64,000 nt of DNA, taken from the NCBI RefSeq assembly GCF_900177805.1, contig NZ_FXAX01000002.1, forward strand, positions 1-64,000, written 5' to 3'. The translations under genes were made by a program, and so were the position numbers. This document shows, piece by piece, positions 5,774-58,949 of this stretch (positions are counted from its first letter, which is position 1; each line of letters opens with the position of its first letter). The notes beneath the pieces are model-generated. The model was given only the letters and a program-made list of their open reading frames with translations, was not told the origin of the DNA and searched no databases. The DNA is from Fibrobacter sp. UWB13. Lineage in GTDB: Bacteria > Fibrobacterota > Fibrobacteria > Fibrobacterales > Fibrobacteraceae.

Positions 5774-5800
5774 AAAACAATTCCTTCTACGCGGCTTCGT

Positions 5801-5850
5801 TGCAAACAGTTGATTGCAAAATGCACCCTTTCTGCAAACGGTTGTTTGCA
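5801..5850. promoter_or_regulatory. Paired 18-bp palindromes in a divergent promoter region (copy 1)
   Basis: Two near-identical palindromes lie between the glycosyltransferase remnant and the first Rpn gene. They are TGCAAACAGTTGATTGCA (5801-5818, one mismatch) and TGCAAACGGTTGTTTGCA (5833-5850, perfect 7-bp arms, 4-bp loop), starting 32 bases apart. The same pair occurs at 7946-7995, and a rearranged pair at 22597-22639. The second site ends 74 bases before the Rpn ATG. The arrangement suggests a repressor operator or a mobility-related site. Confidence 0.6.
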
Positions 5851-5899
5851 AAATTTACAAGGTTCCGCTTTTTCAAATTTTTCCGTTATAAATTAGGAG

Positions 5900-5917
5900 C
5901 TCTAAACTTAACAGAGG
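5900..5917 (+). promoter_or_regulatory. Possible hairpin covering the Rpn ribosome-binding site
   Basis: CTCT (5900-5903) can pair with AGAG (5913-5916). The latter is part of the Shine-Dalgarno AGAGG that precedes the ATG at 5925. The sequence CTCTAAACTTAACAGAGG is kept in all three Rpn loci of the window. In the third the stem grows to CCTCT/AGAGG. Confidence 0.4.
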
Positions 5918-5924
5918 TATAATT

Positions 5925-6716: not shown

Positions 6717-6748
6717 AATTGGGGCTTTTCACATAAGCAGCCTATTAC

Positions 6749-6774
6749 GCCCGAGTCAATCCCGGGCTTTTTTT
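6749..6774 (+). terminator. Terminator after the first Rpn gene
   Basis: GCCCG (6749-6753) pairs with CGGGC (6763-6767), followed by seven T residues, 32 bases after the stop codon. Confidence 0.7.
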
Positions 6775-6787
6775 ACAAGGGCTTTTA

Positions 6788-7918
6788 TCACGACAACACA
6801 TCTTTCAATATCCCGGCAAAGCAGTTTTCAAAAGACTGTAGTGTAAATTCGGACTTGAACTTTTTATACCCGTTTTCGCCATATTGGATTCGCAAATTTT
6901 TACCAAGCAAAAGCGTTTCTAGGGCTGTAGCCAAAGATTCAGCATTATTTCGTTCGCAAATCAAGCCGTTTTGACCATTTATAACCATATCCGGGATCCC
7001 GCCCTCGTTCGTCGAAACAATCGGGAGCTTGAATTCCATGGCTTCAATATTTACCAGTGGGAAAGCTTCGTTATGGTAAAATGTCGGGAAAGCAAAAACA
7101 TCGGCATTTTCAAAATAAGGTGTTTTTTCGGAGCCGTATTTGCGCCCTGCATAAAACGCATTCCCCTCCAATCCACGATTTTTCACTTCTTCTGCAAAAC
7201 GCGCCGCATTCAGTTCATCAGTTTCGCCACCGACAAAATCACAAGTAAAGCGAACCGACCGATCCTTCAAAATTTTCAACGCATCGAGAAGAACAATTAC
7301 CCCTTTCGAAACAATCAAGTTAGAAAGGAATAAAATCTTAGGTGTCTCGTTATGACGTTCAGCAACGGGTTCTTTTGGCAACGATTCAGGAATCCCATTG
7401 GGGCAAATATACACATCCTCTTTTGATACATACTTCTTTACATCTTCGTAAAGAACATTCGCCAAAAGAATAACCTTGAGCCCTTTAAAGAACTTTTTAT
7501 ACAGGATATTGTCCAGGAACTTGCCTTGCCGACTAGCAACACCCTTGTTGTGGTAATGAACGACAATCCGCGCATTCGGGGAATATTTCTTTAAGCAACG
7601 CTTGATGTACTGAACGACAACGAAATCCTTATAGAACGCGCTCCCCGCTGCATTGGGAGTAATGTAAACCAAATCCGGCTGGAATCCTTTTATCGCATTT
7701 TTAAAACGCGTCAGCTGAGACAGCAGATTGAAAATCTTTTTGACACCGCCCTTGCCAATATCTTCAAGATTCTTGGCAAGCATCATATTTTCAAAACGGC
7801 AGTCAAAAGACTCGTTCACGATTTTTGAATCGTGAATATACTTGCCAACCATCGCAGCCCCGTGAACCGGAGGCGGCATGTGCATAATGAAGAGGACTTT
7901 TGGTTTAGAATTTATCAT
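6788..7918 (-). CDS. Glycosyltransferase, GT4-like
   Basis: The 376-aa GT-B enzyme probably adds one sugar to the growing polysaccharide repeat unit at the cytoplasmic membrane face. The N-terminus has the glycine-containing acceptor-domain opening (MPPPVHGAAMVGKYI). The C-terminal half has KILFLSNLIVSKGV and the donor-binding sequence EAFPLVNIEAMEFKLPIVST, followed by GGIPDMV. The ATG at 7918 is chosen because AGAAGGAA lies eight bases upstream; an upstream in-frame ATG at 7996 would put promoter palindromes into the protein. It is the intact parent of the remnant at 5282-5773. Substrate unknown. Confidence 0.88.
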   Translation of the reverse strand: MINSKPKVLFIMHMPPPVHGAAMVGKYIHDSKIVNESFDCRFENMMLAKNLEDIGKGGVKKIFNLLSQLTRFKNAIKGFQPDLVYITPNAAGSAFYKDFVVVQYIKRCLKKYSPNARIVVHYHNKGVASRQGKFLDNILYKKFFKGLKVILLANVLYEDVKKYVSKEDVYICPNGIPESLPKEPVAERHNETPKILFLSNLIVSKGVIVLLDALKILKDRSVRFTCDFVGGETDELNAARFAEEVKNRGLEGNAFYAGRKYGSEKTPYFENADVFAFPTFYHNEAFPLVNIEAMEFKLPIVSTNEGGIPDMVINGQNGLICERNNAESLATALETLLLGKNLRIQYGENGYKKFKSEFTLQSFENCFAGILKDVLS

Positions 7919-7945
7919 AAAACAATTCCTTCTACGCGGCTTCAT

Positions 7946-7995
7946 TGCAAACAGTTGATTGCAAAATGCACCCTTTCTGCAAACGGTTGTTTGCA
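7946..7995. promoter_or_regulatory. Paired 18-bp palindromes in a divergent promoter region (copy 2)
   Basis: This repeats the copy-1 arrangement exactly: TGCAAACAGTTGATTGCA (7946-7963) and TGCAAACGGTTGTTTGCA (7978-7995). The distance between the divergent start codons is also the same (152 bases) in both copies, so the entire module was duplicated. Confidence 0.6.
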
Positions 7996-8069
7996 AAATT
8001 TACAAGGTTTCGCTTTTTCAAATTTTTCCGTTGTAAATTAGGAGCTCTAAACTTAACAGAGGTATAATT

Positions 8070-8885
8070 ATGACCATAAAATCTTTTGACGATCTTGACA
8101 TTACCGATCCGATTATGTTCGGGCTCGTTTTTAGCAACAAACATATCGCGCAACCATTCATTGAACACTTGCTGGGCATCAAAATCGACCATCTGGAGAC
8201 ACCTATTCCTGAAGCAGTTTTGAGTTACGACGCGGAGCACAAAGGCGTCCGTTACGATGTTTTCGCGCGAGAAACCGACGAGAAGGGTGAAACGATTCGC
8301 TCTTTCGACTTGGAGATGCAAATGGTCGATACAAAAGAACTCCCGCAAAGGGCTAGATACTACCAAAGCATTTGTGACGGAGTCGCCCTTTCTAAAGGAG
8401 ATTTTTATACCAGCCTTAAGGAACAGTACATTATTTTTCTGTGTCCCATAGATATTTTTGGGCGAGGATACCCCATTTACCACTTCGAAAACAGGGCACG
8501 TGAAGACACTAGTGTTACCTTGAACGACCTCACTTATAAAAATTATTATATATTTACAAAGTACAAGGAATTCTCTAATCCGGTCGTCAGGGCGTACATG
8601 AAATATTTCGCGACCAAGAACGCGGACATCAATGAAACCAAAACGATTAACGACCAAGTATCTTTTTACAAGGATGACACCCTCATAAGGAGTAAGTATA
8701 TGACATACGAATTTGACATTTACCAAAGCAGACAAGAGGGCCGTGCAGAAGGGAAAGCCGAAGAGAAACTTGAAATGGTCGATGCAATGCTTGCAAAAAC
8801 CAAATTGACCGACCAAGAAATTTCCTCCGTTTCGGGTATTCCACAAGACGAGATTGCAAAGCGTCGCACGCAACATCAAAAATAA
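8070..8885 (+). CDS. Rpn-family recombination-promoting nuclease / putative PD-(D/E)XK transposase (copy 2)
   Basis: A 271-aa paralogue of 5925-6716 with the same N-terminus, the same YDVFA...FDLEMQ catalytic signature and the same TKLTDQEISSVSGI tail. It differs mainly by a short insertion (about residues 218-231, containing QSRQEGRAEGKAEE) before the tail. Such REGxAEGxAE insertions are common and variable in Rpn proteins. The copies have diverged noticeably, more so than the adjoining glycosyltransferase copies. It has the same AGAGG ribosome-binding site and the same upstream palindromes. Convergent with the APH-like gene that ends at 8974. Confidence 0.88.
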   Translation: MTIKSFDDLDITDPIMFGLVFSNKHIAQPFIEHLLGIKIDHLETPIPEAVLSYDAEHKGVRYDVFARETDEKGETIRSFDLEMQMVDTKELPQRARYYQSICDGVALSKGDFYTSLKEQYIIFLCPIDIFGRGYPIYHFENRAREDTSVTLNDLTYKNYYIFTKYKEFSNPVVRAYMKYFATKNADINETKTINDQVSFYKDDTLIRSKYMTYEFDIYQSRQEGRAEGKAEEKLEMVDAMLAKTKLTDQEISSVSGIPQDEIAKRRTQHQK

Positions 8886-8915
8886 AACTAAGGCCTTTCC
8901 CATAAGCAACCTATC

Positions 8916-8936
8916 ATGCCCGACTTCGTCGGGCAT
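8916..8936. terminator. Hairpin between the convergent Rpn and phosphotransferase genes
   Basis: ATGCCCGAC (8916-8924) and GTCGGGCAT (8928-8936) form a perfect 9-bp stem with a TTC loop. There is no long T tract, but its place between convergent stops suggests a bidirectional terminator. Confidence 0.55.
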
Positions 8937-8973
8937 ATTATGCTTATATCGGAATCCATTGAAAGCTTTGAGC

Positions 8974-9876
8974 TTAGAATTCAGCATTCAAAGTTTCCTT
9001 ATACCGGGCTAACATATAAGCATCCTGCTTTCTCGTAAATTCATCAACTTTCAATAAAGCAAAGTCTTTGAAATACGGAACCCAACCGTCAATATCGGCA
9101 GATTCAAAATAAGAATCTATCAACGTTCTATTTTCTTGCATTACTTTTTCAAAAGACTCTTCTCGACGAATTAAAAACGATGTCTGGAAAATGTACGTGA
9201 ATAAATCATGCCCTAAAGACCTTTCCCCCGCCATTTCCCAATCAATTATTTTAAGACAACCGTCGCTCTCAAGCATATTCCACGGACAAAAATCACCGTG
9301 CGAAAAACACGTCTTTAAGCCATTCAATTTCAGCGTCTCGTCATAATGATAAGCTCGGAGGGTTTCAAGAATTTTCAAGATTTCGTCATTAGAGACCTGA
9401 TCATGAATATGGTTTCCCTCAACACATTCCGTTTTCAAAAAAACATAATCATCGGTAACTTTATAATCAAACAGCTTAGGCTCTAATCCTGAATCAGCCA
9501 ACTTCTGATACACAAAAATTTCGTTGGAACTCAGCTTTTGGGCATTCTCTTTTCTAGAAAGCTTAGCAAAGAAACGCCGACCCACCCCATCATAACCCAA
9601 GATACTCTTCTTTTGATCCGGGCTAGGCGTTCCAAAATTTATGCCGAAAACAGAATCTGCCCCCAAAAGTGATTGCAACAATTCAAAATCTTGCACAGAA
9701 GATGATTCAACCCTATTAAGATAGCGCACCAACGAACAATGCAGAAAAAACCACCAATACAGTTTGGCAACAACGCTACCATAATTTCCATACAACGAAT
9801 AGATAAACCGACTTTTCTTTGTCAGTTTCGGAAAAAAGTAGCTTGTCGTTCTCGTTTTGAATCTATAAAGGGTCAT
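8974..9876 (-). CDS. APH/choline-kinase-like phosphotransferase
   Basis: This 300-aa protein has the protein-kinase-like fold of aminoglycoside and choline kinases. The Brenner motif FSHGDFCPWNML is near residue 192 and the metal-binding IIDWEMAG near residue 213. In a polysaccharide cluster it more likely phosphorylates a sugar, an alcohol such as choline, or a lipid intermediate than an antibiotic. The N-terminal 60 residues are rich in aromatic and basic residues and may bind membrane. It overlaps the upstream glycosyltransferase by 4 bases (ATGA), so the two are coupled. Substrate unknown. Confidence 0.82.
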   Translation of the reverse strand: MTLYRFKTRTTSYFFPKLTKKSRFIYSLYGNYGSVVAKLYWWFFLHCSLVRYLNRVESSSVQDFELLQSLLGADSVFGINFGTPSPDQKKSILGYDGVGRRFFAKLSRKENAQKLSSNEIFVYQKLADSGLEPKLFDYKVTDDYVFLKTECVEGNHIHDQVSNDEILKILETLRAYHYDETLKLNGLKTCFSHGDFCPWNMLESDGCLKIIDWEMAGERSLGHDLFTYIFQTSFLIRREESFEKVMQENRTLIDSYFESADIDGWVPYFKDFALLKVDEFTRKQDAYMLARYKETLNAEF

Positions 9877-42562: not shown

Positions 42563-45500
42563 ATGAATCGTATCTACTTGTCTGTATTGCTTTTAGCGGC
42601 AGCATCCGCTTTTGCCGAAAAAACTGTAACCCCCGTCGCCCCCAAACTGGTGGATAACTGCTACCAGATTGGCACTGTAGCCGAACTTTTCGGTTTTGCA
42701 GAAATCGTGAACGACGAAAATAATGCAGCTCACGACAATTGCGCCTGCGGAAGACTCACCGCCGATATTCTGGTAAATACCCAAAACCCGGAAAACTCTG
42801 ATGGTTCAGAGATCATTTCGTGGACGCCCATCATGAACTATTGCGGGACCTTCGACGGCAACGGCAAAAGCATAACGGGGCTTAGTTTCATCGACTGGTA
42901 TGGTGGCAACATCGGCTTTTTCGGAAGCACCATCAAAAAATTCGTCTCCCTCGAAGAAGAATACCACGCCACCATCAAGGACCTTAATCTGATCGACGCC
43001 TATTTCAGTGGCGACACCTGCGTCGGAACACTCATCGGACATGGCGAAGAAACCGACATCATCAACGTCCACACAGACGGTTCCGCCCACGGAAGATACG
43101 CCATCGGCGGTTTTGCAGGATACCTCAGAACCGGAACCATTACGCATTCCTTCAACGAAGCGGGCGGCGATGCCAAAGCCGCAGGCGGTGCTTTCATCGG
43201 CGTTGTCGAAGGGAACATCAGCATTACAAATTCCTACAATAAAGGGCACCTTACACCAGACAACGATGGCTGCTGCTCATCATCTACTCCCAAGTCCCCC
43301 ATTCGCCTAGTCGGGTACAATTACGGGACGGTCACTGTTGAAAATTCCTACCACATGCCCCAAAAAACATGGGACAATGATAGGGCATCACTCGATGGTG
43401 TTACCGTCATCCACAGTTTTTACGATGGTTCCTATATCGGTAAGTACGGCACCCACGTCACCACACATGAATTCAACGACGGCACAGTGGCGAAGCTTTT
43501 ACGCGAATACAAATCCGACAGTACCGGCACCGACGGCTCCGTATGGGGACAAGAAATCGGAAAAGACGAATCACCCGTATTTACAGACAAGTTCAACTTT
43601 TATTCCATTATCCCGCAAACTCCAAAGATGGTCGAAGGTTGCTACCAGATCGGCACTGTTGAAGAGCTCTTCGGTTTTGCAAACATCGTCAACACTTCGC
43701 TGTACAACATCACGCCGTTCTGCGCCCAGCTGACAAAAGACATTACCCTCAACAAGGACGTTGCCGCCAAAAAGAAAGGCGACATCCAATGGATTCCGAT
43801 TCGAGATTTCGACGGCACGTTCGACGGTCAGGGCCACACGATTTCGGGCATTTACATTAACGATACGACACTCACAAATGCAGGCTTATTCGCATCTGTT
43901 TTTAACCGAGACCCGCTCTCCCCCACAATCATCAAGGACGTTAACATCGCTGATACATACATTCGTGGTGGTCTGAACACAGGAACCCTGGTGGGCGAAA
44001 TCGACACCCTCAGCAAAGATGTTGTCATCGAAAATTGCGGAGTCAATGCCGTAACGGGGAACTCTTATATATACGAAGCGAAACAGTATAGAGGTGGCAT
44101 TGTCGGGCTCTTGCATGGTGGAACGCTTACGATTAAGCAAACTTCTAGCGAAATCAACTTGTTTGGATATGGCAACGGAGGAGGACTTGTCGGTAACGTC
44201 ATGGGTTCGCTGAACATTGTCAATTCCTACAGCATCCTCACCGACGCCGACTATTTCCAAGCTCAAGGACTTGTGGGTTACGCGCCACAGCCATACTATT
44301 CAGGCAGCACTCCTGTTACAGCACAAATTAACATAGAAAATTCCTATGGGCTTACAAAATCCGCAACAACTCCGGATTTGATATATGTTCACCTCAGTAG
44401 AGTTCCAGTTCCCGTTACATACAAAAACGTTTTCCACATTGACTACTCCGGGACTTCTCAAGACAGCATTGGACTTTTCAGTGCCACAGAAGAACAGTTC
44501 AAAAACGGCGCGGTCGCAAGCGCATTGCACATGTACAAAAGCGAAACCGCCGACGGCTCCGTGTGGGGTCAAAATGTGGGCACAGACGAATATCCAAAGC
44601 TCACCGGAAATATCACAGGCGCTACTTCTGTCAAGAGTTCTTCGTTGAAGTTGGTAACATACGATACAGACACAACCACATATCGCGACAAATATGTCGA
44701 AGGATTAGAAAGCTTACTTCCGATTCCCGAACGCAAGGACTATGTTTTTAAGGGTTGGTTCAGCAACAAGGACTATTCAGGAAGTCCAGTGAAATTCATT
44801 CCAAACGATGCAACAGGCGACTTGACTTATTACGCCCAATGGTGGCACAACCCGAGCATTGTCAACAACTGCTACGAAATCGGCGACATTGGCGAGCTGT
44901 ATCAATTTGCCGACATGTACAACAGCGAAGCGAAGCACACGAGCACATGTGTCAAGCTTACGGCAAACATCATCGACAACAAGAATGTTCTCGTCAACGG
45001 AAAAATCAACGAAGCAGATTCTGCAAAATTCAAAAAATGGACTCCAATCAAGAATTTCATTGGTACGTTTGATGGTCAAGGTCACACCATTTCAGGTCTT
45101 TTCGTTTCCAATTCCGCAGATGGAGTCGGGCTCTTTGGCTCAATCGGCTTAAAAAGAGAAGTCGGTGAAAAAGCACCCGTGACCAAAACAGTCATTCAAA
45201 ACATCAACATCAAAGACTCTTATTTCTACGGAAACAAGTATGTCGGGAGTCTCATTGGACGAGCCGAATCAGCTTCTATTTTGTCGGTGATAAATATTTC
45301 TAGCGAAAGCAACATCAATGCAAATTCCAATCACGCTGGAGGAATCATCGGTTATTATGGCAACGATGAAGGTCCGGACGAAGGCATCGAACTGAACATA
45401 GTCAACGTCCACCATGATGGCGAAACTTTTGGTCTCAATTGCGTCGGAGGCATTGCAGGTTCTATCTTATATGCAAAATCAACTATAATCAACGCGTCTA

Positions 45501-46606
45501 ATACTGGAGCCACTTTAGGGTATGGCGGAATTGGCGGATTAGTCGGGCAAATAATTAGCTACGACACATCTAAATCCACAATGATGTACTCTTACAACGA
45601 AGGCTTCGTCAGTTCCATCAATGCTGCAGTAGGCGGTTTAGTTGCATTCCAGAAATATTTCCTAGATCTTTACAACTCTTACAATGTTGGCAACGTCCAA
45701 GCAGGTACGTTTAAATCTGGCGGGATTATTGGACAAACGGACGGTATTCTTTCCATCGTTAATACGTATAACAAAGGCATTGTCAGCGCCGAAAAGGATT
45801 CATTAGTAGACGCACTCGTCGCCGAAACGGGCGAAAATTCCGAAGTCTCATTGAACAATACATTCTATGTGAATACAGCAAAAACAACTCAAAGCGGAAC
45901 CGCAGCAAGTGCTACCGAGTTTACAGATTTGTCGCTGGCCAAGAAGCTCCATGATTACAACAAGAATGGAATTAATGGTGACGTATGGGGGCAAGAAACA
46001 GGTGATGCTTACCCGCACTTCAAGAAGAATGTTGTCGAAGAATTTGCAGCCGCTTACATCAAGACGCTCAACCTCGAAATTGCAATTAGCTCTTCAAGCA
46101 GCGTGAATTCGAGCAGCTCTACCGCGCAATCGTCATCCAGTTCCGCAAAATCGTCTTCAAGCAGCGTGAATTCAAGTTCTAGCGTAACGGTCTCCAGCTC
46201 TAGCGAAGAATCCAGTAGTTCCGCGAAGTCGTCGTCCTCCTCTGCGAAATCCAGCAGTTCTTCAAAGATTGCTTCGAGTTCTTCGAGCAGCGCGAAATCG
46301 AGCAGCTCCGCGAAGTCATCTTCGAGCAATGCAAAGTCTAGTTCCAGCGTAACTGTTTCCAGCTCAAGCAAGGGAACAGGACTTGAAAAAGTAAGGTCAA
46401 TTGCAAAATTGCACATTGCCGTTGAACCAAACTTCATTTCGATTCACGGAGCACAGATTGGAGCCAACGTAACTTTATTGGATATGCAAGGACGAGTTCT
46501 GTACCGCCATCATGCGGTGAGTTCGGACTTTAACATTGCCAAACCGGCCCCAGGATCGTATATAATACACATCATGAACAAAAAGCAAATCGTCACGATA
46601 CGGTAA
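42563..46606 (+). CDS. Large exported GLUG-like repeat protein with InlB-type repeat, Ser-rich linker and C-terminal sorting-like domain
   Basis: 1347 aa. Signal peptide (about residues 1-18, ending AFA). Three blocks each start with a NCYQIGTVAELFGFA-like sequence and contain GTFDGNGKSITGL/GTFDGQGHTISGI and many GGFAGYL, GGLVGNV and GGIIGYY turns, the pattern of GLUG-type beta-helix adhesins. Between blocks 2 and 3 is a Listeria-Bacteroides/InlB-type repeat (YVFKGWFSNKDYSGSPV...YYAQW, about 710-750). Residues about 1170-1280 are almost only Ser with Ala, Lys, Val and Asn. The last 70 residues (VTLLDMQGRVLYRHHAV...PGSYIIHI) resemble a type A C-terminal sorting domain of type IX-secreted proteins. 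Likely a surface adhesin; ligand unknown. Confidence 0.82.
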   Translation: MNRIYLSVLLLAAASAFAEKTVTPVAPKLVDNCYQIGTVAELFGFAEIVNDENNAAHDNCACGRLTADILVNTQNPENSDGSEIISWTPIMNYCGTFDGNGKSITGLSFIDWYGGNIGFFGSTIKKFVSLEEEYHATIKDLNLIDAYFSGDTCVGTLIGHGEETDIINVHTDGSAHGRYAIGGFAGYLRTGTITHSFNEAGGDAKAAGGAFIGVVEGNISITNSYNKGHLTPDNDGCCSSSTPKSPIRLVGYNYGTVTVENSYHMPQKTWDNDRASLDGVTVIHSFYDGSYIGKYGTHVTTHEFNDGTVAKLLREYKSDSTGTDGSVWGQEIGKDESPVFTDKFNFYSIIPQTPKMVEGCYQIGTVEELFGFANIVNTSLYNITPFCAQLTKDITLNKDVAAKKKGDIQWIPIRDFDGTFDGQGHTISGIYINDTTLTNAGLFASVFNRDPLSPTIIKDVNIADTYIRGGLNTGTLVGEIDTLSKDVVIENCGVNAVTGNSYIYEAKQYRGGIVGLLHGGTLTIKQTSSEINLFGYGNGGGLVGNVMGSLNIVNSYSILTDADYFQAQGLVGYAPQPYYSGSTPVTAQINIENSYGLTKSATTPDLIYVHLSRVPVPVTYKNVFHIDYSGTSQDSIGLFSATEEQFKNGAVASALHMYKSETADGSVWGQNVGTDEYPKLTGNITGATSVKSSSLKLVTYDTDTTTYRDKYVEGLESLLPIPERKDYVFKGWFSNKDYSGSPVKFIPNDATGDLTYYAQWWHNPSIVNNCYEIGDIGELYQFADMYNSEAKHTSTCVKLTANIIDNKNVLVNGKINEADSAKFKKWTPIKNFIGTFDGQGHTISGLFVSNSADGVGLFGSIGLKREVGEKAPVTKTVIQNINIKDSYFYGNKYVGSLIGRAESASILSVINISSESNINANSNHAGGIIGYYGNDEGPDEGIELNIVNVHHDGETFGLNCVGGIAGSILYAKSTIINASNTGATLGYGGIGGLVGQIISYDTSKSTMMYSYNEGFVSSINAAVGGLVAFQKYFLDLYNSYNVGNVQAGTFKSGGIIGQTDGILSIVNTYNKGIVSAEKDSLVDALVAETGENSEVSLNNTFYVNTAKTTQSGTAASATEFTDLSLAKKLHDYNKNGINGDVWGQETGDAYPHFKKNVVEEFAAAYIKTLNLEIAISSSSSVNSSSSTAQSSSSSAKSSSSSVNSSSSVTVSSSSEESSSSAKSSSSSAKSSSSSKIASSSSSSAKSSSSAKSSSSNAKSSSSVTVSSSSKGTGLEKVRSIAKLHIAVEPNFISIHGAQIGANVTLLDMQGRVLYRHHAVSSDFNIAKPAPGSYIIHIMNKKQIVTIR

Positions 46607-49100: not shown

Positions 49101-52100
49101 ATGCACATTGCGTACAACGCATTCAAAAAGGCATTCTTTTCTTTATGCCTGACACTTCCGTTTTACATAGCCGCTTGCGGTGACGATAGCGACAACAATT
49201 CAACCGCAATTATCGAAGACGACGAAGAAGACAACCTCGGTGGCGAAACCTTCAAGGACACCACCATCACGAGCAACCAGTTCAATTCCAACGCGGGCGT
49301 TGTCAACATCATCAAGAGCGAAATTCTGGATGTCAAAAGCGGCAACTCCTACAAAACCATCCAATTCGGTCCGTACACGTGGATGGCAGAGAACGCAAAC
49401 TACAAGATTTCACGCAGTGCATGCTACGACGGGGATACCGACTACTGCAAAACGTACGGACGCTTATACCAGAGCATGAACGCCGACCAGGCTTGCCCCA
49501 GCGGGTTCAAAATTCCGTCCGAAGCGGACTTCAAATACATCACGCGCTTCACAAATTCCATTACCGACCCCGCATTTGGCTTCAACCCGCAAATGTCCGG
49601 CTTCTGTGAAACGGTCAATGGCGAACTGCAATGTTCCCGCCTCGGCAAAGAGGCATACTACCTCACCACCGATTTCAACGTATTTAGAGTCAACAACAAA
49701 AGCAAATTCGACTTTCCCGAAGCAAACTATAGTGCATATTACGCACTCCGTTGCATGAAAACTTCGCACTTTGTCGAAAACGACAAACAGCTCCCGATTT
49801 GCGATTCTACCACTTACAATAGCCTCAGCAACTTCTATGTCGCAAGCAAAGGATACAACTACCGCTGCAACCGCAAAAAATGGGTCGAAGCCGAAGACAA
49901 CTCCTGCCCATCCGCAGAACGTGGCGAAAAGCATTACTACAAAGACACCTTGTTCGTATGCCGCGGTTCCTGGCAATACGCAACCATGAGCGACGTAGAC
50001 GTGAGCTGCACCAAGAAAAACCAGTGGGAAATCCTCAAGCTCAACGGTCAAAGCTACATCTGCGACGATTCCACATGGCGCAAGCCCTCCACCGTCGAAA
50101 CGGCAATCGGACTTTGCACGCTCGACAGCTTAAAGAAGATGAGTGCCGCCATCGACAAGGACAACGAAGACACCACGGATTACATCTGCGATTCCACAGG
50201 CTGGCGCAGGGCAGTCCTCACAGACTCCATCGGGTTCTGCACCAAGAAAAACCAATGGGAACAAAAGAAAAATTACGAACAGGACTACATCTGCAAAGAC
50301 TCCACATGGCGTAAGCCGACCACCATCGAAGCCGCCATCGGGCTCTGCACACCCGACAGCATCAAAAAAATGGGCGCTGTCAAAACCAAGAGCGACACCA
50401 CGGAATACTTCTGCGATTCTACAGGCTGGCGCAGGGCAGTCCTCACAGACTCCATCGGTAAATGCACACTCAGCAGGGATTGGGAAGAGAAAAAGAATTA
50501 CGGCAAGAACTACATCTGTAGGGATTCCGTCTGGAAACGAGCCACCACGCGCGAAGATTCCATCGGATTCTGCACGCCAAAGCGAATTGGCAAAATCGAC
50601 TCCCTCAAGAGCGGCAACAGCTACAGCTCTTACTACTGCGATTCCACAGGCTGGCGCAGCACCGTCATGGTAGACTTTGTCGGCAAATGCGAATCTTCAA
50701 AGTTCTACACGACCGTCGAATACAGGAGCACAACATACGTTTGCCGCCCCACCAAGAAATGGGACATATTGAGCTCGACCGAAAAGAGCATCGGCATTTG
50801 CTCGCCCAAGATCAACGGAAAAATCGACACCTTAAAATCTAGCGGCACAAGCTACATCTGCGATTCCACAAGCTGGCGCACCACTAACATTTACGACTAT
50901 TACGGCGATTGCGATTCCACCAAGCTCTACACAACAAAAACGTTCAACGACGAGACTTACGGCTGCACGAACCCCACAAAATGGGAAAAACTCACGCACC
51001 CCACATCTGAATTCGGATTCTGCATGCCAAAGCTCAAAGGCACCATAAAAACAGACAAATCCGGCAAGGACTTTATCTGCGATAGCATCTGGAGAAACGC
51101 GACCAAAGCCGAAGTTCTCGGCACATGCGATTCGAGCAAGCAAACGCTCCAAAAATCGTACAACTCCGTCACGTACGCTTGCGTGAACAACGAATGGCGA
51201 ACGCTCACCTCATTGGAAACCGCCTTGGGACTATGCACAAAGGAAAATCTAAACATCATAAAGTCAAAGGATAACGTAAGCTACATTTGCAACGATACCG
51301 GCTGGGCAAAATACACCGTCGAGCAAGTATTCGGGGAATGCTTTTATAAAAACGAATACAAGACTGCCGAATTTGGCGGCTACGAATACGTTTGTAAGCA
51401 CAACAAATGGACCTTAATAGACTCCATCGAATACGCCTTGGGATTCTGCAAAGAAACAAGTTACTACAAAGTATATGAATACAAGGGCGATTACTACTAT
51501 TGCAGCGACGATGAGGAATGGGAAATTGCCCCAGCCAGATACGCCCTACAGGCTCTAGATAAATGCACATCAGAAAAACTCGGCAAAACGGCTATGTACC
51601 GCGGGGTAGAGTACTACTGTTCCGATGGCGATATATGGTATGAGTACACAACCTTGGATAAGGAACTTGGCGTATGCCATAGCGGAATCATAGACAAAGT
51701 CGTTGAATATAACGGTAAAAATTACGGTTGTGCGTTCATAAATGGCAATGGACAAAGAAAATATTTTTGGCGAGAAGAAGAAGAAGCAGACAGACTTTTA
51801 GGATTCTGCCATGGGTTGGTAAAAAAAATAATCTGGAAAGAATACAACGGTAAAGATTACGTTTGCGATGACGATGAAGGCAAATGGACAAGCTCCGGCT
51901 CAATGTTCCCCATGTACGGCTCATGCACCTCTAGCCAAACAGAGAAACTAGGTGTTACGGTAGGTTTAAACGGACAGCACTACTATTGCAACACCAACAT
52001 GAACTCAACATCGAATGATTTGACCGGTTGGTACGCCTTACAGCCCATCGACAGCATCAAAGGACCTTGCTATTACGACAAGCTTGGCGACACGCTGACG

Positions 52101-52862
52101 TTCGAAGGCGCCCACTATTATTGCGGCAAAAATATCAACGGGTATTACAGATGGCTCCCCGCCACAACGTTTTTCCAGTACTACGGCAAATGCGGAATGG
52201 CAAACGAAGGCAAAGTCGCCGAGTTCAACGGAATGAACCTGCAATGCTACGAGAACAATTGGCGCAGAGACCCGGGCGATTACAGGAGCATCACCGACTC
52301 CAGAGACGGCAACAGGTACAAGACCATCAAGATTGGCAAGCAGGAATGGTTTGCCGAAAACTTGAAATACGAAATCGAAGGCAGCTGGTGCGGTGGCAAC
52401 ATCAACGGTTGCAATACGTACGGTCGCCTGTACAGTTGGGACATGACCATCGGGCAACCGAAAGACGCACACCCGACATTGGCAGACATCGAAGACCCGG
52501 AAGATTTACAAGGCGTTTGTCCGAAAGGCTGGAGAGTCCCCTCGACGCTAGACTGGAGCATCCTCCTCAAGGAATGCAACAGCGCAGACATCAGCAAAAC
52601 ACTGACGGGTTACGATTCATTGCACACGGACCTCTGCGGATTCTCGGCGTTCCCGACAGGCTACGAAAACGTCTTCTTCCGGAACGGAATCGACTACACA
52701 GAGGAACTTGTGACAAGCTCAACCCTTCCCGCCTACTGGAGTTCTGAACAAGTGACCGACACAACGGCAACATCAGTGGTGATCCCCAGCAAATCTAACA
52801 CAATTTCTGCCACCACTAGAAAGAAGGTCTACGGCTACCCCGTCCGTTGCATCAAGAAATAA
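49101..52862 (+). CDS. Giant lipoprotein with two Fib_succ_major-like domains and about 22 two-cysteine repeats
   Basis: 1253 aa. Start fixed by AAGGAGG just before the ATG. Signal peptide with lipobox IAAC (Cys 26). An acidic linker leads to a first Fib_succ_major-like (TIGR02145-like) segment (about residues 75-220: TIQFGPYTWMAENANY, YGRLYQS, CPSGFKIPSEADF). Residues about 230-1070 are about 22 tandem units of roughly 35-45 residues. Each has one Cys in a (I/L/F/Y)G-x-C position, then Y-x-C and a Trp, as in IGFCTKKNQWEQ...YICKDSTWRK. A second, complete Fib_succ_major-like domain ends the protein (TIKIGKQEWFAENLKY, GVCPKGWRVPS, YWSSEQ, GYPVRCIKK). Probably on the outer surface; function unknown. 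Confidence 0.85.
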   Translation: MHIAYNAFKKAFFSLCLTLPFYIAACGDDSDNNSTAIIEDDEEDNLGGETFKDTTITSNQFNSNAGVVNIIKSEILDVKSGNSYKTIQFGPYTWMAENANYKISRSACYDGDTDYCKTYGRLYQSMNADQACPSGFKIPSEADFKYITRFTNSITDPAFGFNPQMSGFCETVNGELQCSRLGKEAYYLTTDFNVFRVNNKSKFDFPEANYSAYYALRCMKTSHFVENDKQLPICDSTTYNSLSNFYVASKGYNYRCNRKKWVEAEDNSCPSAERGEKHYYKDTLFVCRGSWQYATMSDVDVSCTKKNQWEILKLNGQSYICDDSTWRKPSTVETAIGLCTLDSLKKMSAAIDKDNEDTTDYICDSTGWRRAVLTDSIGFCTKKNQWEQKKNYEQDYICKDSTWRKPTTIEAAIGLCTPDSIKKMGAVKTKSDTTEYFCDSTGWRRAVLTDSIGKCTLSRDWEEKKNYGKNYICRDSVWKRATTREDSIGFCTPKRIGKIDSLKSGNSYSSYYCDSTGWRSTVMVDFVGKCESSKFYTTVEYRSTTYVCRPTKKWDILSSTEKSIGICSPKINGKIDTLKSSGTSYICDSTSWRTTNIYDYYGDCDSTKLYTTKTFNDETYGCTNPTKWEKLTHPTSEFGFCMPKLKGTIKTDKSGKDFICDSIWRNATKAEVLGTCDSSKQTLQKSYNSVTYACVNNEWRTLTSLETALGLCTKENLNIIKSKDNVSYICNDTGWAKYTVEQVFGECFYKNEYKTAEFGGYEYVCKHNKWTLIDSIEYALGFCKETSYYKVYEYKGDYYYCSDDEEWEIAPARYALQALDKCTSEKLGKTAMYRGVEYYCSDGDIWYEYTTLDKELGVCHSGIIDKVVEYNGKNYGCAFINGNGQRKYFWREEEEADRLLGFCHGLVKKIIWKEYNGKDYVCDDDEGKWTSSGSMFPMYGSCTSSQTEKLGVTVGLNGQHYYCNTNMNSTSNDLTGWYALQPIDSIKGPCYYDKLGDTLTFEGAHYYCGKNINGYYRWLPATTFFQYYGKCGMANEGKVAEFNGMNLQCYENNWRRDPGDYRSITDSRDGNRYKTIKIGKQEWFAENLKYEIEGSWCGGNINGCNTYGRLYSWDMTIGQPKDAHPTLADIEDPEDLQGVCPKGWRVPSTLDWSILLKECNSADISKTLTGYDSLHTDLCGFSAFPTGYENVFFRNGIDYTEELVTSSTLPAYWSSEQVTDTTATSVVIPSKSNTISATTRKKVYGYPVRCIKK

Positions 52863-52885
52863 CCGATACTTCTCTATACAAGAAT

Positions 52886-52918
52886 GCCGTCCAGTTTCAA
52901 GAGCTGGACGGCATTTTT
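52886..52918 (+). terminator. Rho-independent terminator after the giant lipoprotein gene
   Basis: GCCGTCCAG (52886-52894) and CTGGACGGC (52904-52912) form a perfect 9-bp stem, followed by ATTTTT, 24 bases after the stop. Confidence 0.9.
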
Positions 52919-52949: not shown

Positions 52950-53078
52950 TTATTCTTCTCGACCTACCGAAATATGATCGGGGAGATAAGGACTTGACTC
53001 CAAAAGCGGTACTTGCGCTTCAATCACAATCACCTTGATTTCTGGAGTCACATATTCCTTCTTAGACGTGTTCGACAT
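52950..53078 (-). CDS. 42-residue minigene overlapping the previous minigene
   Basis: ATG at 53078 with GGAG six bases upstream, stop at 52950-52952. The product reads MSNTSKKEYVTPEIKVIVIE then AQVPLLESSPYLPDHISVGREE. It overlaps the 58-residue minigene by 17 bases in another frame, a layout typical of translational coupling. The core KEYVTPEIKVIVIEAQVPLL lines up with KNYIAPEMTVVQFEHEGCLL of that gene, so they are likely paralogues. Short proteins opening with K-x-Y-x-x-P-E are frequent in Bacteroidota and relatives; their function is not established. Downstream of the 1900-aa surface protein on the same strand. Confidence 0.6.
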   Translation of the reverse strand: MSNTSKKEYVTPEIKVIVIEAQVPLLESSPYLPDHISVGREE

Positions 53079-53238
53079 CTGAAACTCCATCGTTATACCC
53101 GAAGCCATTACCGTAACCGCAGCCTTCTTCTTGATTGTTAGTACTGCATCCAAGCAAGCAACCTTCGTGTTCAAACTGAACCACGGTCATTTCGGGTGCG
53201 ATATAGTTTTTTTTCATTTCGTCTTTCATAGTCTTCAT
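53062..53238 (-). CDS. 58-residue Cys/Gly-rich minigene
   Basis: ATG at 53238 (alternatives at 53229 and 53217), stop at 53062-53064. The product has a K-KNYIAPEMTVVQFEHEG opening, then CLLGCSTNNQEEGCGYGNGF and GYNDGVSDVEHV. It has three cysteines, alternating Gly/Tyr and an acidic end, and no signal peptide. It starts 8 bases after the stop of the 1900-aa protein gene and overlaps the next minigene. The leader-plus-Cys/Gly-rich-core layout recalls peptide-natural-product precursors, but no modifying enzyme is nearby, so this is only a hint. Confidence 0.6.
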   Translation of the reverse strand: MKTMKDEMKKNYIAPEMTVVQFEHEGCLLGCSTNNQEEGCGYGNGFGYNDGVSDVEHV

Positions 53239-53246: not shown

Positions 53247-56200
53247 TTATTTCTTTAAAACCTTCTTGCCATAGTAGGCGCCACGAGCCTTGCGAGCATC
53301 CTTGCCGTAAGCACGTCCCTTCAAGTCGAACTCACGGTTAGCGGAGCGCGGCAATGCAAACTTGCCCGAGCGGGTATTGATCTGTCCGATGACCGTTGTA
53401 TGTTCGCCACCGTTTTCATCTTCGCCTTCACGGACCACGGTAATCGTTTCAGGCAATTCGCTTGTAATAGAAGCACTCTTCCAATCGGCAACATTGTAAC
53501 GGGCAACCTTCTTGACTGCCAGCACATTTTGCACATTCGGCAGCGGATTGTATCTCAAGTAAGCGCGCAAGGGACTGATATAAGCACCAGCCTTCCCTCT
53601 GACAAAATCACCAATAACAAAGCCATCACCAGCGACACCGACAAACCCATAAATGGCACGACCATCAATCAGCTCAGCATCGCCTTCAGCCCATTTCTTG
53701 TACTGGTACACACCGACAAATTCCCAGTCGCCTCTTCTGACCGCAAATTCAGGCTCATTTGTTACAAGTTTCACAGGACCACGAATTTCAAGAGACGTGT
53801 GACCCTTCTCCAGTTGCACAATATAAGGCGTATTTGCCTTGAGAAGCGTACTGTAATCGCATTCTCCGACAAGATTGTCACAAACCTTAGCCGGAGCTTC
53901 AGCAGGCTTATCCCAAACACCGAGCGTTTTAGCATCGAGCCTTATAATCACGCCCTTATCATTCTTAACAGTGTCCATTCTCGAGAATGAATCAATATGC
54001 TCAGCGCCAATCAAGTTATCCGCATAGACCTCGAACGGGAACATGACCGTTGCATATCTGCCAGCGGTAAAGCCTCTATTGAATTTGACTTCATCCACCG
54101 TAGTTTCCTGAGTAATGACAACAGGCATATCCTTGTCGAAATTACCGTCAAGCGTAGCAACCATCTTATCTTCTGCATTCTTCGTAATCACAAGGGCAGG
54201 GGGATACACATACTTGTCAGCAAGTTCAAGCAGCCCTTCTTCATGGATGATTCCCGTATAAGAGTTGCCCAGGTCATCGTAGTAACTCATGTCATTAGCA
54301 ACCAAAATGGAGTCATTATAGCTACTGGCCTTGACCGTAGCACCGGAGAGATAGATTGTCATTTGCTTAGAGTTGTCAGCATAAATACCCCTGCAACCAT
54401 CTTCTGCCAACGCCGTCACCGTACCGCCCTTCAAATACACATCACTCCCATAGGAGCCGATGCCAAAGCATGCACAATTTTCTTCGCTATAATAGATTGA
54501 AGATGTAGCATTGACTTTACCGCCGGCAATTGTAACATTCCCGTTCGCATTAATAGCGTAACCACCCGTAGCGGTAACGGTTCCTCCGTTGATGTCAACA
54601 TTTCCGAGAGAAGAAAGACCTGATCCAGATTCAGGTCTTTCACCTGTAGCATGGGCTTCAACCGTACCGCCATTGACCACCAGAGAATTTCCATGAGCAT
54701 AAATAGCTTGTTTTCTTCCAAAGGCTTTTACAACGCCATCATTAATCTTAACAGAGCTACCTCCAATACCGGTTATCTCGCCTGTAGCCTTAACAACGCC
54801 GCCATTGATTGTCAATGCATCATCAACATCTATAGCAGAATAAGAATCCGCATTTACTTCAAAAACGCCCTGATTTACGCCCGTGCTCTGAGCATAGATG
54901 GTGAGGTTTTCAAACAAAGTATTATTTTCAACAGTCAACTTGGCGTCATCCGCAAGAATCAAGTGAAGAGTCGGAGCCGCAAACGCAAAGTTGTTTTTAT
55001 AAGACACTTCGCTATTGACCAAGACCCAACCACCGTTTGTAAACAATTCACTATCAGCGCATTCGGTACCGACAAGCTCGTAATCCGGAGTGACGCTCTG
55101 TTCCTCACCATTTTCATCAAGGTAAGTAACTTCCGTCAAATCTTCCCACAAGCCATAGGCAATAGGACTATTGAAATTCGTAAAGTCAAACAGTTCCTGA
55201 TAAGACTTGTCGGCATACCACCTGAACTTTTTCCCTTTAGCAACAGGAGTGCAAGGAATTTTGCCAAGAATCACAGGCTTATCCTCATCAGCGTCGTCAA
55301 CAACAAACTTGACCATTTTCGCCGGATACAGATTTTTGTGAGCAATTAATGCAATCTGTTCAGCATTAAGAGTTTCACTATACGCATTACCTGGTTCATC
55401 CACATAAACAAGATCAGGAGCAACCGCTATTGAATATTTATCCCCTCCTGGAATAATATACATACTAGCCTGGACCGTCGCGCCTGCAAGCTTAATACCA
55501 GCAAAATCCTCATCAGTCTCTTTTATAACAATTTCTCCAGAAGCAGCAACAGAGCCTTTATTAAATTCAGCATTACTTGTTTCAATAGCGTCAGCCCAGA
55601 TTCTACCACCATTTACAACAAACTTATCCGCGACATTTAAAGAAAGTTTCTTATTCGCATCATTTAAAGCAAGACTCAATCCGCCCATTTTTTTGCCTAG
55701 GCTTTGAGCATAAATGGTCAGATTGCCAAATTCAGCACTGCCTTCACTATTATTGCATTCAAAAGTCAGCCAAGCGTCATCCATAAGAATGAGATTGACA
55801 TTTTTCCCTGCAAAATTGAAATCGCTGCAATTGTAATACATCTTGCCACTGACCACGTACCATCCATCCGATGGCGTGAACGAGACTCCCATCGAGCTAC
55901 CAGAATTAGCGGCGCCTGGAGTAGAGCTAGAACTGGTGGGGACAAGTGCAGTATAGTCTTCTGTAAGCGTCTGCGTTACGCCGTTCTCATCGATGTAAGT
56001 GATTTCAACCAAATCCTCCCACTTGGCATAAGCCGTAGCACCACTTTCGAAATTCGTAAAGTCAAACGGGGTTTGATAAGACTTATCGGCATACCACCCG
56101 ACGAAAGTTCCCAAATAACGAGTGGAAGCGCCAGGATCTACGCCAGGAACCCACACCTTTTCGCTAACAGAGCTGCCATCAACAAACGTGATCGTTTTGG

Positions 56201-58949
56201 CAAGAGAAAGCGTTTTGCCAGCCATCAATGCAATCTGGTCAGCATCAAGAGTATTGCGGTACTCATTACCTTTTTCATCCACATAAACAAGACCGGGGTA
56301 AACCATTACTACATACTGGGACCCTTCTGGAATAGAATACGAATTAGCCCAGACCGTCGCACCAGCAAATAAAATAGCAGCAAAATCCTTATCACTCTCT
56401 TTTACAACAACATCTCCATCAACAATAACAGAGCCATTAATAAATTCAAACATATCAGCTTCAATAGAGCTACCTATCAAAATTGAGCCTCCACAAACAG
56501 ACAATGCATCTGTTTTCAAAGAAGACACTTCAAATTCGCCCATATTTTTGCCCAGACTTTGGGCATAAATGTTAAGATCGCCAAATTCAGCACTGCCTTC
56601 ATTACTGTTGCAATCAACAGTCAGCTTCGCTCCATCCATAAGAATGAGATTGACTTCTGCCCCACTAAACTTGAAATCTTCACAATCGTAAAGCACTTCG
56701 CCACTGACCACATACCATCCCGTCGTGTTGCTAGAACTAGAGGCAACACTACTGGAACTAGAAACGATGCTAGAACTGCTTGCAGCACCGCTCGAACTGG
56801 AGCTAGGACTAGAGGCTACAAGTACAGTGTAGTTATCCTCAAGCGTCTGCGTTACGCCGTACTCATCGATGTAAGTAACTTCAACCAAATTTTCCCACCT
56901 GGCATAAGCATAGTCTCCATCCTGGAAATTCGTAAAGTCAAACAGAGGATCGTCACTAGACTTGCCGGTATACCACCCGAGAAACTTTTTCCAAATGTGA
57001 GTAGGGTTGCTAGGAATTACACCAGGGATCCACGCCTTTTCACTCACAGAGCTGCCATCAACAAACTTGACCATCTTCGCAGGGGCAACCATTTTGCCTG
57101 CCATTGATGCAATTTGGTCTGTACTAAGATAGCTGCGGTACGCATTACCTTGTTCATCACCATAAACAAGATCAGTCGAAATCCATAATGAATATTCTGG
57201 AATTGTATAAAAACTAGCCTTGACAGTTGCGCCAGAAAAATTGACACTGGTTAATTCACCCTCATTTAAAATAATTCCACCATCAACAACTACAGAACCT
57301 TTCTCAAATGTAACATAATCCGCTTCAAGAGAGCCTTTTATTGAGATTGATCCTCCATCAACGATCAAATAACCAGCATTTAAAGAAGACACTTCAAATT
57401 TGCCCATGTCTTTGCCCAAACTTTGAGCATAAATGAACAAACTCTCAAATTCAGCGCATTTTTCATTATTGCTATTTGTAACAGTCAGCTTCGCTCCATC
57501 CATAAGAATGAGATTGACATCTTTCCCTGTAAAATCGAAATCGCTACAATCATAAGACACTTCGCCACTGACTACATACCATTCCGTCGTGTTGCTAGAA
57601 CTAGAAACGCTACCTGAACTAGAAATGCTACTAGAACTAGGAGCAACACCACTTGAACTAGAAATTCTACTAGAACTGCTTGCAGCACCGCTTGAACTGG
57701 CAACACTGCTAGAACTAGCGGCTACAAGTACAGTGTAGTCTTCCGTAAGCGTCTGCTCCTGACCATTTCCATCGATGTAAGTAACATTAACCAAATTCTC
57801 CCACTTGGCATAAGCAAAATCTCCACTCTCAAAATTCGTAAAGTCAAACAGAGTCTTATACGACTTATCAGCATACCACCCGAGGAACTTCTTCCAAATG
57901 CGAGTGGGTTCGCTAGGAATTACACCAGGAATCCACGCCTTTGTACTCACAGAGCTGCCATCAACAAACGTGAGCCATTTCGCAGGGGCAACCGTTTTGC
58001 CCGCCATTAATGCAAGCTGTTCAGCACTAAGAGTACCGCTATACGCATTACCTTGTTCATCCCCATAAAGAAGATTATTCCCAACCTTCGCTTCACATAG
58101 GTTCGAAACAGAATACGAATTCGCCCTGACCGTTGCGCTAGCAAACTGAATACAAGCACTAACGGTATCTGCATCACTTACAGCAGATACTCCTTCAGTA
58201 ACAACAACAGTTCCATTATAAAAACGAACATGTTTAGCTTCAATACCTCCACCAACCGATACAGAACCATTTTCGAATTCAACGGCCCCTGCTTTAATAT
58301 CGCCACCTATCGATACAAAACCATTTTCGAACTCAACGCTCTTCTTTGCTACAACACCGCCACCAACCGATACTGAACCATTTTGGAATTCAACGCTATT
58401 TGCTTCAACATTGCCACCTATCGATACAGAACCGTTATTAACACAAACTGATGTCGCATTAACATTGCCCGTTGTTAAGACAGCGCCACTCAGGACATTA
58501 ATAGCATAAGTGACTTTTAAAGAAGGCACTTCAAATCTGCCCATGTCATCGCCCAAGCTTTGAGCATAAATGTTAAGATTGAGAAATTCAGCAGCACATC
58601 CTTCATCACCATTTGTAACAGTCAACTTAGCTCCATCCATAAGAAGGAGGTTAACCCTTTGCCCTGCAAAATTAAAATCGCTACAATCGTAAAACACTTC
58701 ACCCTTGACTACATACCATTCCGGCATGCTACTAGAACTACTTGCAGCACCGCTCGAACTAGAGACACTGCTAGAACTGGCAGCGGCAAGTACAATGAAT
58801 TCCTCCGTAAGCGTTTCCTCTCCATTCCAACCAATATACTTGATCGTCTCTTGGCTAGGATCTTCCGCCCATACGGTTGAAACGGCAAGCAACGATACGA
58901 GCAGAATCAACACTGACCGTACTTTTGCAAATATGCTTTGGTTATTCAT
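53247..58949 (-). CDS. Giant (1900-aa) exported protein of five large repeat units with polyserine linkers
   Basis: Signal peptide about residues 1-28 (ending VWA). Five units begin near residues 35, 386, 693, 983 and 1275 with VTYIDENGVTQTLTEDYTVL-like text. In units 1-4 this is followed by a Ser-rich linker (SSSSGAASSSS) and then WYVVSGEVxYDCSDF, VNLILMDGAKLTV, LNIYAQSLGKxMG, short NGSVSVGG strands like a beta-helix, MAGKTVAPAKMVKFVDGSSV, and GWYADKSYxTLFDFTNF...AYAKW, an InlB/Listeria-Bacteroides-type repeat. Unit 5 lacks the serines. Residues about 1600-1900 form a separate region ending FDLKGRAYGKDARKARGAYY, then GKKVLKK, probably a sorting or anchoring tail. Likely a surface adhesin. 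Followed by two minigenes. Confidence 0.8.
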   Translation of the reverse strand: MNNQSIFAKVRSVLILLVSLLAVSTVWAEDPSQETIKYIGWNGEETLTEEFIVLAAASSSSVSSSSGAASSSSSMPEWYVVKGEVFYDCSDFNFAGQRVNLLLMDGAKLTVTNGDEGCAAEFLNLNIYAQSLGDDMGRFEVPSLKVTYAINVLSGAVLTTGNVNATSVCVNNGSVSIGGNVEANSVEFQNGSVSVGGGVVAKKSVEFENGFVSIGGDIKAGAVEFENGSVSVGGGIEAKHVRFYNGTVVVTEGVSAVSDADTVSACIQFASATVRANSYSVSNLCEAKVGNNLLYGDEQGNAYSGTLSAEQLALMAGKTVAPAKWLTFVDGSSVSTKAWIPGVIPSEPTRIWKKFLGWYADKSYKTLFDFTNFESGDFAYAKWENLVNVTYIDGNGQEQTLTEDYTVLVAASSSSVASSSGAASSSSRISSSSGVAPSSSSISSSGSVSSSSNTTEWYVVSGEVSYDCSDFDFTGKDVNLILMDGAKLTVTNSNNEKCAEFESLFIYAQSLGKDMGKFEVSSLNAGYLIVDGGSISIKGSLEADYVTFEKGSVVVDGGIILNEGELTSVNFSGATVKASFYTIPEYSLWISTDLVYGDEQGNAYRSYLSTDQIASMAGKMVAPAKMVKFVDGSSVSEKAWIPGVIPSNPTHIWKKFLGWYTGKSSDDPLFDFTNFQDGDYAYARWENLVEVTYIDEYGVTQTLEDNYTVLVASSPSSSSSGAASSSSIVSSSSSVASSSSNTTGWYVVSGEVLYDCEDFKFSGAEVNLILMDGAKLTVDCNSNEGSAEFGDLNIYAQSLGKNMGEFEVSSLKTDALSVCGGSILIGSSIEADMFEFINGSVIVDGDVVVKESDKDFAAILFAGATVWANSYSIPEGSQYVVMVYPGLVYVDEKGNEYRNTLDADQIALMAGKTLSLAKTITFVDGSSVSEKVWVPGVDPGASTRYLGTFVGWYADKSYQTPFDFTNFESGATAYAKWEDLVEITYIDENGVTQTLTEDYTALVPTSSSSTPGAANSGSSMGVSFTPSDGWYVVSGKMYYNCSDFNFAGKNVNLILMDDAWLTFECNNSEGSAEFGNLTIYAQSLGKKMGGLSLALNDANKKLSLNVADKFVVNGGRIWADAIETSNAEFNKGSVAASGEIVIKETDEDFAGIKLAGATVQASMYIIPGGDKYSIAVAPDLVYVDEPGNAYSETLNAEQIALIAHKNLYPAKMVKFVVDDADEDKPVILGKIPCTPVAKGKKFRWYADKSYQELFDFTNFNSPIAYGLWEDLTEVTYLDENGEEQSVTPDYELVGTECADSELFTNGGWVLVNSEVSYKNNFAFAAPTLHLILADDAKLTVENNTLFENLTIYAQSTGVNQGVFEVNADSYSAIDVDDALTINGGVVKATGEITGIGGSSVKINDGVVKAFGRKQAIYAHGNSLVVNGGTVEAHATGERPESGSGLSSLGNVDINGGTVTATGGYAINANGNVTIAGGKVNATSSIYYSEENCACFGIGSYGSDVYLKGGTVTALAEDGCRGIYADNSKQMTIYLSGATVKASSYNDSILVANDMSYYDDLGNSYTGIIHEEGLLELADKYVYPPALVITKNAEDKMVATLDGNFDKDMPVVITQETTVDEVKFNRGFTAGRYATVMFPFEVYADNLIGAEHIDSFSRMDTVKNDKGVIIRLDAKTLGVWDKPAEAPAKVCDNLVGECDYSTLLKANTPYIVQLEKGHTSLEIRGPVKLVTNEPEFAVRRGDWEFVGVYQYKKWAEGDAELIDGRAIYGFVGVAGDGFVIGDFVRGKAGAYISPLRAYLRYNPLPNVQNVLAVKKVARYNVADWKSASITSELPETITVVREGEDENGGEHTTVIGQINTRSGKFALPRSANREFDLKGRAYGKDARKARGAYYGKKVLKK

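Follow-up and report, generated by a model that had tools for sequence, protein, structure and literature searches.

Two overlapping minigenes behind a giant exported-protein gene of Fibrobacter as candidate precursors of a RiPP-like system

Two short reading frames, here termed P1 and P2, follow the gene for a 1900-aa surface protein in Fibrobacter sp. UWB13, and the question is whether they are genes at all and, if so, what kind of peptide they encode. The original prediction described them as apparent paralogs with a duplicated leader and diverged tails, coupled to the surface protein, and offered peptide signals, secretion chaperones or natural-product precursors as possible roles. We analysed them in their window, a stretch of 64,000 nucleotides of contig NZ_FXAX01000002.1, and in related genomes.

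Position and reality of the two minigenes

The features of the locus are as follows.

53247-58949, minus strand: gene for the 1900-aa exported protein, first in a putative three-gene operon; the order is the same in the nearest relative (L036)
53250-53399, minus strand: C-terminal tail TTVIGQINTRSGKFALPRSANREFDLKGRAYGKDARKARGAYYGKKVLKK of the 1900-aa protein, common to exported proteins that precede peptide genes
53062-53238, minus strand: P1, a 58-codon precursor-like peptide MKTMKDEMKKNYIAPEMTVVQFEHEGCLLGCSTNNQEEGCGYGNGFGYNDGVSDVEHV (leave-out HMM, L036 ortholog)
53143-53214, minus strand: leader-like conserved segment of P1, KKNYIAPEM...LLGCS, with a YxxPx[M/L] motif (alignment A1)
53085-53088, minus strand: GGAG, ribosome-binding-site-like, six bases 5' of the P2 ATG (sequence)
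52950-53078, minus strand: P2, a 42-codon precursor-like peptide MSNTSKKEYVTPEIKVIVIEAQVPLLESSPYLPDHISVGREE (leave-out HMM, L036 ortholog)
52992-53063, minus strand: leader-like conserved segment of P2, KKEYVTPEI...LLESS (alignment A1)
52883-52915, no strand assigned: perfect 12-bp hairpin AATGCCGTCCAG-(9 nt)-CTGGACGGCATT, followed by a T run on the plus strand (read from the sequence)

The coordinates, lengths and strand given by the original prediction all match the sequence, as do the gap of 8 bases between the stop of the giant gene and P1 (53239-53246), the overlap of 17 bases between P1 and P2 (53062-53078) and the spacing of the GGAG. P1 contains three in-frame ATGs, at 53238, 53229 and 53217, and an AGGA abuts the first of these and lies about nine bases 5' of the second. 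Since it is too near 53238 for a ribosome-binding site, P1, which likely starts at 53238 or 53229, may have its true start at 53229. The hairpin lies between P2 and a convergent gene for a FISUMP lipoprotein-like protein, and probably serves as terminator for the genes on both sides; its 9-nt loop placed it outside the list of an automated terminator scan with a loop limit of 8. As the hairpin parts P2 from the FISUMP gene, P1 and P2 appear to form a single operon with the giant gene.

In the FISUMP gene itself (49101-52862), a Cys-rich module, C..Y.C...W, is repeated many times, and the close relative L036 has two FISUMP-type genes in tandem at the equivalent site. Elsewhere in the window, positions 5282-8987 form a near-duplicate block in which a glycosyltransferase frame occurs twice, in a short (5282-5851) and a long version (6788-7996), together with near-identical Rpn/PD-(D/E)XK-type ORFs (5925-6716 and 8070-8885, by eye) and matching antisense frames.

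Neither peptide has a match in Pfam or NCBIfam, and no PADLOC family matched them or the maturation-cluster genes tested. For a profile of their own, we built a hidden Markov model (HMM) from 38 relatives, with P1, P2 and their two orthologs left out. It ranked P1 (E=1.5e-18) and P2 (E=1.6e-10) first and second among the 738 ORFs of the window, with the third-ranked ORF at E=0.58, which bears out the pattern said to be common to the two. The nearest relative, which belongs to another species, contains orthologs of both in the same order behind an orthologous giant gene, so the conservation in related strains on which the original prediction had staked the frames was found.

The suggested comparison of synonymous and non-synonymous changes was made as rough pairwise estimates against the ortholog, in which dN/dS was 0.27 over 47 codons for P1 and 0.71 over 41 codons for P2, the latter from one ortholog pair and therefore weak evidence for selection. 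Other pairs with adequate synonymous divergence (g2, g3, g7-g10) yielded values of 0.11-0.65, and the near-identical pairs g4-g6 carry little information. Chance open reading frames next to a surface gene might also be short and lack database matches, but the profile scores, the retention of the pair in another species and very many relatives across two phyla rule this reading out as practically impossible. The observation of P1 and P2 as real features is confirmed.

A peptide family and its exported partners

A tblastn search with P1 against 111 Fibrobacteraceae genomes yielded matches in 78, often two close together. With the family HMM, peptides were identified in 75 of the 111 genomes at 1-13 copies per genome, P1 and P2 being the sole members in this one. 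The members are 36-65 aa in length and consist of a conserved half, KKEYxAPEMxVVxxxxQxxLLxxS, and a variable tail; there are hundreds of copies, often in tandem pairs. In an alignment of 42 peptides (A1), YxxP never varies at its Tyr or Pro, and at least 90% of the sequences retain the KK, the second Leu and the Ser, while the last position of YxxPx[M/L] is mostly Met but also Ile, Leu or Val. The proposed duplicated leader with diverged tails holds for the family at large: the conserved half is fixed and the tails differ, as in a pair of paralogs at locus L074 with 30 of 30 identical residues in the leader and 6 of 19 in the tail. The peptides thereby show the build expected of RiPP precursors, being short and having a leader that is conserved and a core that varies.

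The tails are short and often acidic, and recurring types include CDxxYCDELG (DYCDELG) and GLAPxPKDHLA. No single modifiable residue is common to them and no cleavage site is conserved; the C-terminal residues vary, and the conserved Ser is internal (LLxxS). Open-licence full-text literature yielded no account of the peptide family, or of the cyclase-free cluster described below, which is weak evidence of novelty; the family is apparently undescribed.

The 1900-aa partner has a signal-peptide-like N-terminus, repeated modules with Ser-rich linkers and List_Bact_rpt repeats. Its C-terminal tail corresponds to the consensus TTxIGxxNTxTGE...(W/F)(Y/F)DLKGRKLNxKPxxKGxYYxxGKKVIxK, which was recognized by eye in about 37 of the 41 distinct larger proteins whose genes immediately precede a peptide gene at the inspected loci. 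A tail HMM matched 82 of the 111 genomes, with exactly one hit in this genome, the 1900-aa protein. Among the 117 best-scoring tail hits, at least 56 have a same-strand peptide no more than 500 nt downstream, for an expectation by chance of about 0.0005 per tail. The recurrence of the peptides beside exported proteins, proposed as a tblastn check, was thus observed, often as pairs, and the predicted coupling to a surface protein extends to a whole set of exported proteins that end in the same type of tail. Tails with no listed peptide nearby exist too, also in peptide-free genomes (G018, G088, some in g4 and g6), so the tail is somewhat more widely distributed than the peptides.

None of 19 C-terminal tail regions tested matched an NCBIfam model, including that of the Por secretion tail, TIGR04183, and a structure model of a 180-residue tail region was poor (mean pLDDT 67) with no meaningful PDB match. 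A type IX secretion system (T9SS) has been proposed for the cellulases of Fibrobacter succinogenes (PMC6851124). By eye, the basic tail of the partner proteins recalls the last part of T9SS C-terminal domains (TIGR04183; BTD/Fpm-1 of Fibrobacter), from which it is set apart by the lack of NCBIfam matches for the 19 tails and the low confidence of the model. The window also encodes a 1347-aa Ser-rich exported protein (42563-46606) with the C-terminus VTLLDMQGRVLYRHH...PAPGSYIIHIMNKKQIVTIR, which by eye resembles a classical type IX secretion tail; the tail of the 1900-aa protein is shorter and unlike it. A sub-family of exported proteins of about 320 aa ending in NKGMF(I/V)G...K pairs with DYCDELG-like peptides (L039, L044, L051, L052, L055, L081), which suggests that the type of exported protein and the type of peptide co-vary.

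A candidate maturation and export cluster in trans

A candidate maturation cluster is located outside the window, away from P1 and P2.

G000:C1:1,472,095-1,477,670 (L066): trans cluster with two NTP_transf_5 genes, a kinase, an S26-type peptidase, a PqqD protein and an ABC transporter

Because the cluster acts in trans in this genome, if at all, what ties it to the peptides is their co-distribution and the gene linkage seen in relatives. Matches of the kinase, the peptidase and the PqqD protein to curated families in Pfam and NCBIfam are remote. The NTP_transf_5 nucleotidyltransferases were identified with PF14907 (E about 1e-45; 6e-45 in relatives with the genes next to the peptides) and the 97-aa PqqD protein with PF05402 (E=2.9e-13). 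The best NCBIfam matches of the latter, below cut-off, are lasso PqqD chaperones, and its best PDB match is the lasso RRE TfuB1 (6jx3), at a weak E=0.02. The P-loop of the kinase is invariant, and its predicted structure (pLDDT 94), with structural matches to PEPCK and HprK/P, resembles the HprK/PEPCK fold. The peptidase contains SMxPF, HR and GDGN in all 10 alignment rows; these correspond to the boxes of signal peptidase I/S26 (SMxP, a Lys or His box and a GDxN-type box) with His replacing Lys, and TIGR02228 matched at E=2.8e-4, below cut-off. The best NCBIfam match of the ABC transporter is an NHLP bacteriocin exporter.

Across the 111 Fibrobacteraceae genomes, peptides were found in 75, the PqqD protein in 72, the kinase in 73 and NTP_transf_5 in 76. 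Each of the four is present in 38 of the 56 high-quality genomes and, among the genomes listed, these are the same 38 for all four components. All four occur in two of the 11 genera (g1 and g11), and three near-complete Fibrobacter genomes (G018, G046, G088) are devoid of all four. Peptides and PqqD occur together in 71 genomes, peptides only in four (G039 and three clearly incomplete assemblies), PqqD only in one and neither in 35. Fisher tests of this association, which ignore shared ancestry, gave p=3e-23 overall and 3e-5 within the genus. Two Fibrobacter genomes with neither PqqD nor peptides, G041 (C83:58171-62701) and G042 (C228), encode divergent nucleotidyltransferases, and G041 also a divergent kinase; these enzymes possibly belong to another PqqD-type or lasso-like system.

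Several Fibrobacter loci contain the complete order tail protein, one or two peptides, nucleotidyltransferase, kinase, S26-type peptidase, PqqD and ABC transporter. Some relatives have genes for NTP_transf_5, an HprK-like kinase, an S24/S26-like peptidase and an ABC transporter downstream of the peptides. In loci centred on PqqD, the core order kinase-S26-PqqD-ABC is common; some contain PqqD and ABC with no kinase or peptidase nearby, and nearly all of those genomes encode the kinase elsewhere. As is typical of RiPP precursors, the peptides are thus genetically associated with proteins for leader binding, modification, processing and export.

When the PqqD alignment by itself was used to search GTDB species genomes, the matches came from Fibrobacter, rumen Prevotella and Bacteroidaceae. 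Peptides were found in all 23 Bacteroidota genomes that carry the PqqD protein, at up to 30 copies, and the arrays at three Bacteroidota loci (L131, L145, L170) are equivalent to the complete order in Fibrobacter. The same three-part arrangement of peptides, tail-bearing exported protein and cluster is seen in rumen Prevotella, and many Bacteroidota peptides are located behind exported proteins with an end like WYDMSGHKLSGKPTKKGLYINNGKKIVIK. Two rumen Prevotella genomes, G127 (L173) and G125 (L171), contain 22-30 peptide copies, far above the numbers in Fibrobacter, with tails in which D, E, W and G are often abundant. RiPP clusters in Bacteroidales have been obtained by genome mining (PMC10352776), in a paper whose text gave no match for nucleotidyltransferase, S24, YxxP or Fibrobacter.

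The roles offered by the original prediction can be weighed against these patterns. That of a natural-product precursor is favoured, since the peptides share their distribution with the cluster of PqqD, kinase, nucleotidyltransferase, signal peptidase and ABC transporter and are encoded within it in several genomes; nothing points to secretion chaperones, and the finished peptide could conceivably serve as a signal. The near-constant position of the peptides behind exported proteins with a common tail, their probable co-transcription with these and the presence of both in Bacteroidota would also fit small proteins that stay unmodified and help or control the surface protein, as chaperones, anti-sigma-like or stability factors, with the PqqD cluster as a fellow traveller. 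We consider this unlikely, since the peptide tails are highly variable while the YxxP/LLxxS half is fixed, the presence and absence of the peptides match those of PqqD, kinase and nucleotidyltransferase, peptide genes adjoin nucleotidyltransferase genes in several genomes, and YxxPxL in lasso leaders is the known recognition motif of the PqqD-type B1 protein (PMC10368454).

The same motif raises the question of whether P1 and P2 are ordinary lasso precursors with a cyclase and a leader protease elsewhere in the genome. The reference set is provided by the paeninodin and pseudomycoidin systems, which comprise A, B1/PqqD, B2, C, a kinase (K), a nucleotidyltransferase (N) and an ABC transporter (D), and in which HprK-like kinases phosphorylate the lasso peptide and, in the case of pseudomycoidin, the nucleotidyltransferase reportedly glycosylates the phosphate (PMC8498205). 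In common with these, the system described here has a YxxPx[M/L/I] leader, a stand-alone, lasso-like PqqD-type RRE, an HprK-like kinase, NTP_transf_5 and an ABC exporter, and so matches their accessory set. By contrast, the B2 transglutaminase-like protease (PF13471, Transglut_core3) scored above cut-off in none of the 111 genomes, an S26-type, signal-peptidase-like protein takes the protease slot, and no asparagine-synthetase-like cyclase turned up in scans or by inspection of the cluster genes. The precursors are many and scattered, each behind an exported tail protein, and their tails do not appear lasso-like: alignment A1 contains no conserved Thr, Ile or Val that would fit position -2 of a leader and no consistent Asp or Glu that would fit ring closure at positions 7-9 of a putative core. 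The C-terminal Ser that serves as phosphate acceptor for PsmK/PsmN-type enzymes is likewise missing. Membership in the lasso family was rejected on the missing B2 protease and the lack of a cyclase in the inspected clusters, and a lasso product from enzymes encoded elsewhere is quite improbable. The SynChlorMet cassette with HPr-rel-A (ScmC, ScmD, an HprK-related kinase and a PqqD-related chaperone) likewise combines an HprK-like kinase with a PqqD-like protein. Matches of the cluster genes to the ScmC and ScmD models were weak, all far below curated cut-offs, and, unlike in SynChlorMet, no radical-SAM gene was noticed by inspection of the clusters.

Finally, the tight coupling to tail proteins and the presence of a signal-peptidase-like enzyme could be explained if the peptides were remnants of leaders or tags that recruit the exporter or the peptidase to the surface protein, with no core released. 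This is highly improbable given that several genomes encode more peptides than tail proteins, that a single tail protein is commonly followed by a tandem pair whose peptide tails differ, and that tail sub-motifs recur (DYCDELG, GLAPxPKDHLA), as expected of cores under selection.

A candidate route from precursor to cell surface

We therefore favour P1 and P2 as precursors of a RiPP-like system served in trans by the cluster, a reading that the patterns of sequence and gene order make probable. The N-terminal half, KKxYxAPEMxVV...LLxxS, would act as a leader bound by the PqqD-type RRE through YxxPx[M/L], as in lasso peptides, and the differing C-terminal halves of P1 and P2 would be the cores. 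PqqD would present the leader to the enzymes, among which the kinase would phosphorylate a hydroxyl group, perhaps on the almost invariant LLxxS Ser, perhaps within the core. By analogy with pseudomycoidin, the nucleotidyltransferase could then place a sugar or a nucleotide on that phosphate; a phosphoglycosylation of this kind is conceivable, at a little under even chances. The S26 peptidase would remove the leader and the ABC exporter move the peptide out of the cell, with one cluster serving many precursors. Since every precursor is co-produced with a surface protein that bears the tail, the mature peptide probably has its place of action on the cell surface, together with that protein or in its surroundings.

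The leader, the RRE, the kinase and the nucleotidyltransferase are known parts, while no account of their combination here was found in the open-licence literature covered, in that it lacks B2 and a cyclase in the cluster, uses an S26 peptidase and joins scattered multi-copy precursors to tail-bearing partners in two phyla. We tentatively suggest that it represents an undescribed and widespread class of peptides in rumen Fibrobacter and Prevotella, in which scattered precursors, each encoded with a tail-bearing surface protein, are matured in trans by one locus into linear, phosphoglycosylated, non-lasso peptides that bind or attach to the partner protein. Lasso-type tailoring parts would then be in use apparently without the production of a lasso.

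Unannotated peptides, an unnamed tail and a maturation and export cluster are hereby joined into one testable system of fibre-degrading rumen bacteria from two phyla. If the proposal is true, it would be a genome-wide system of one factory and many surface pairs rather than a bacteriocin cluster, would provide a large number of new precursors whose leader is defined and a tractable route in vitro (bind, phosphorylate, transfer, cleave), and would offer a clue to why Fibrobacter and Prevotella decorate or guard certain giant surface proteins.
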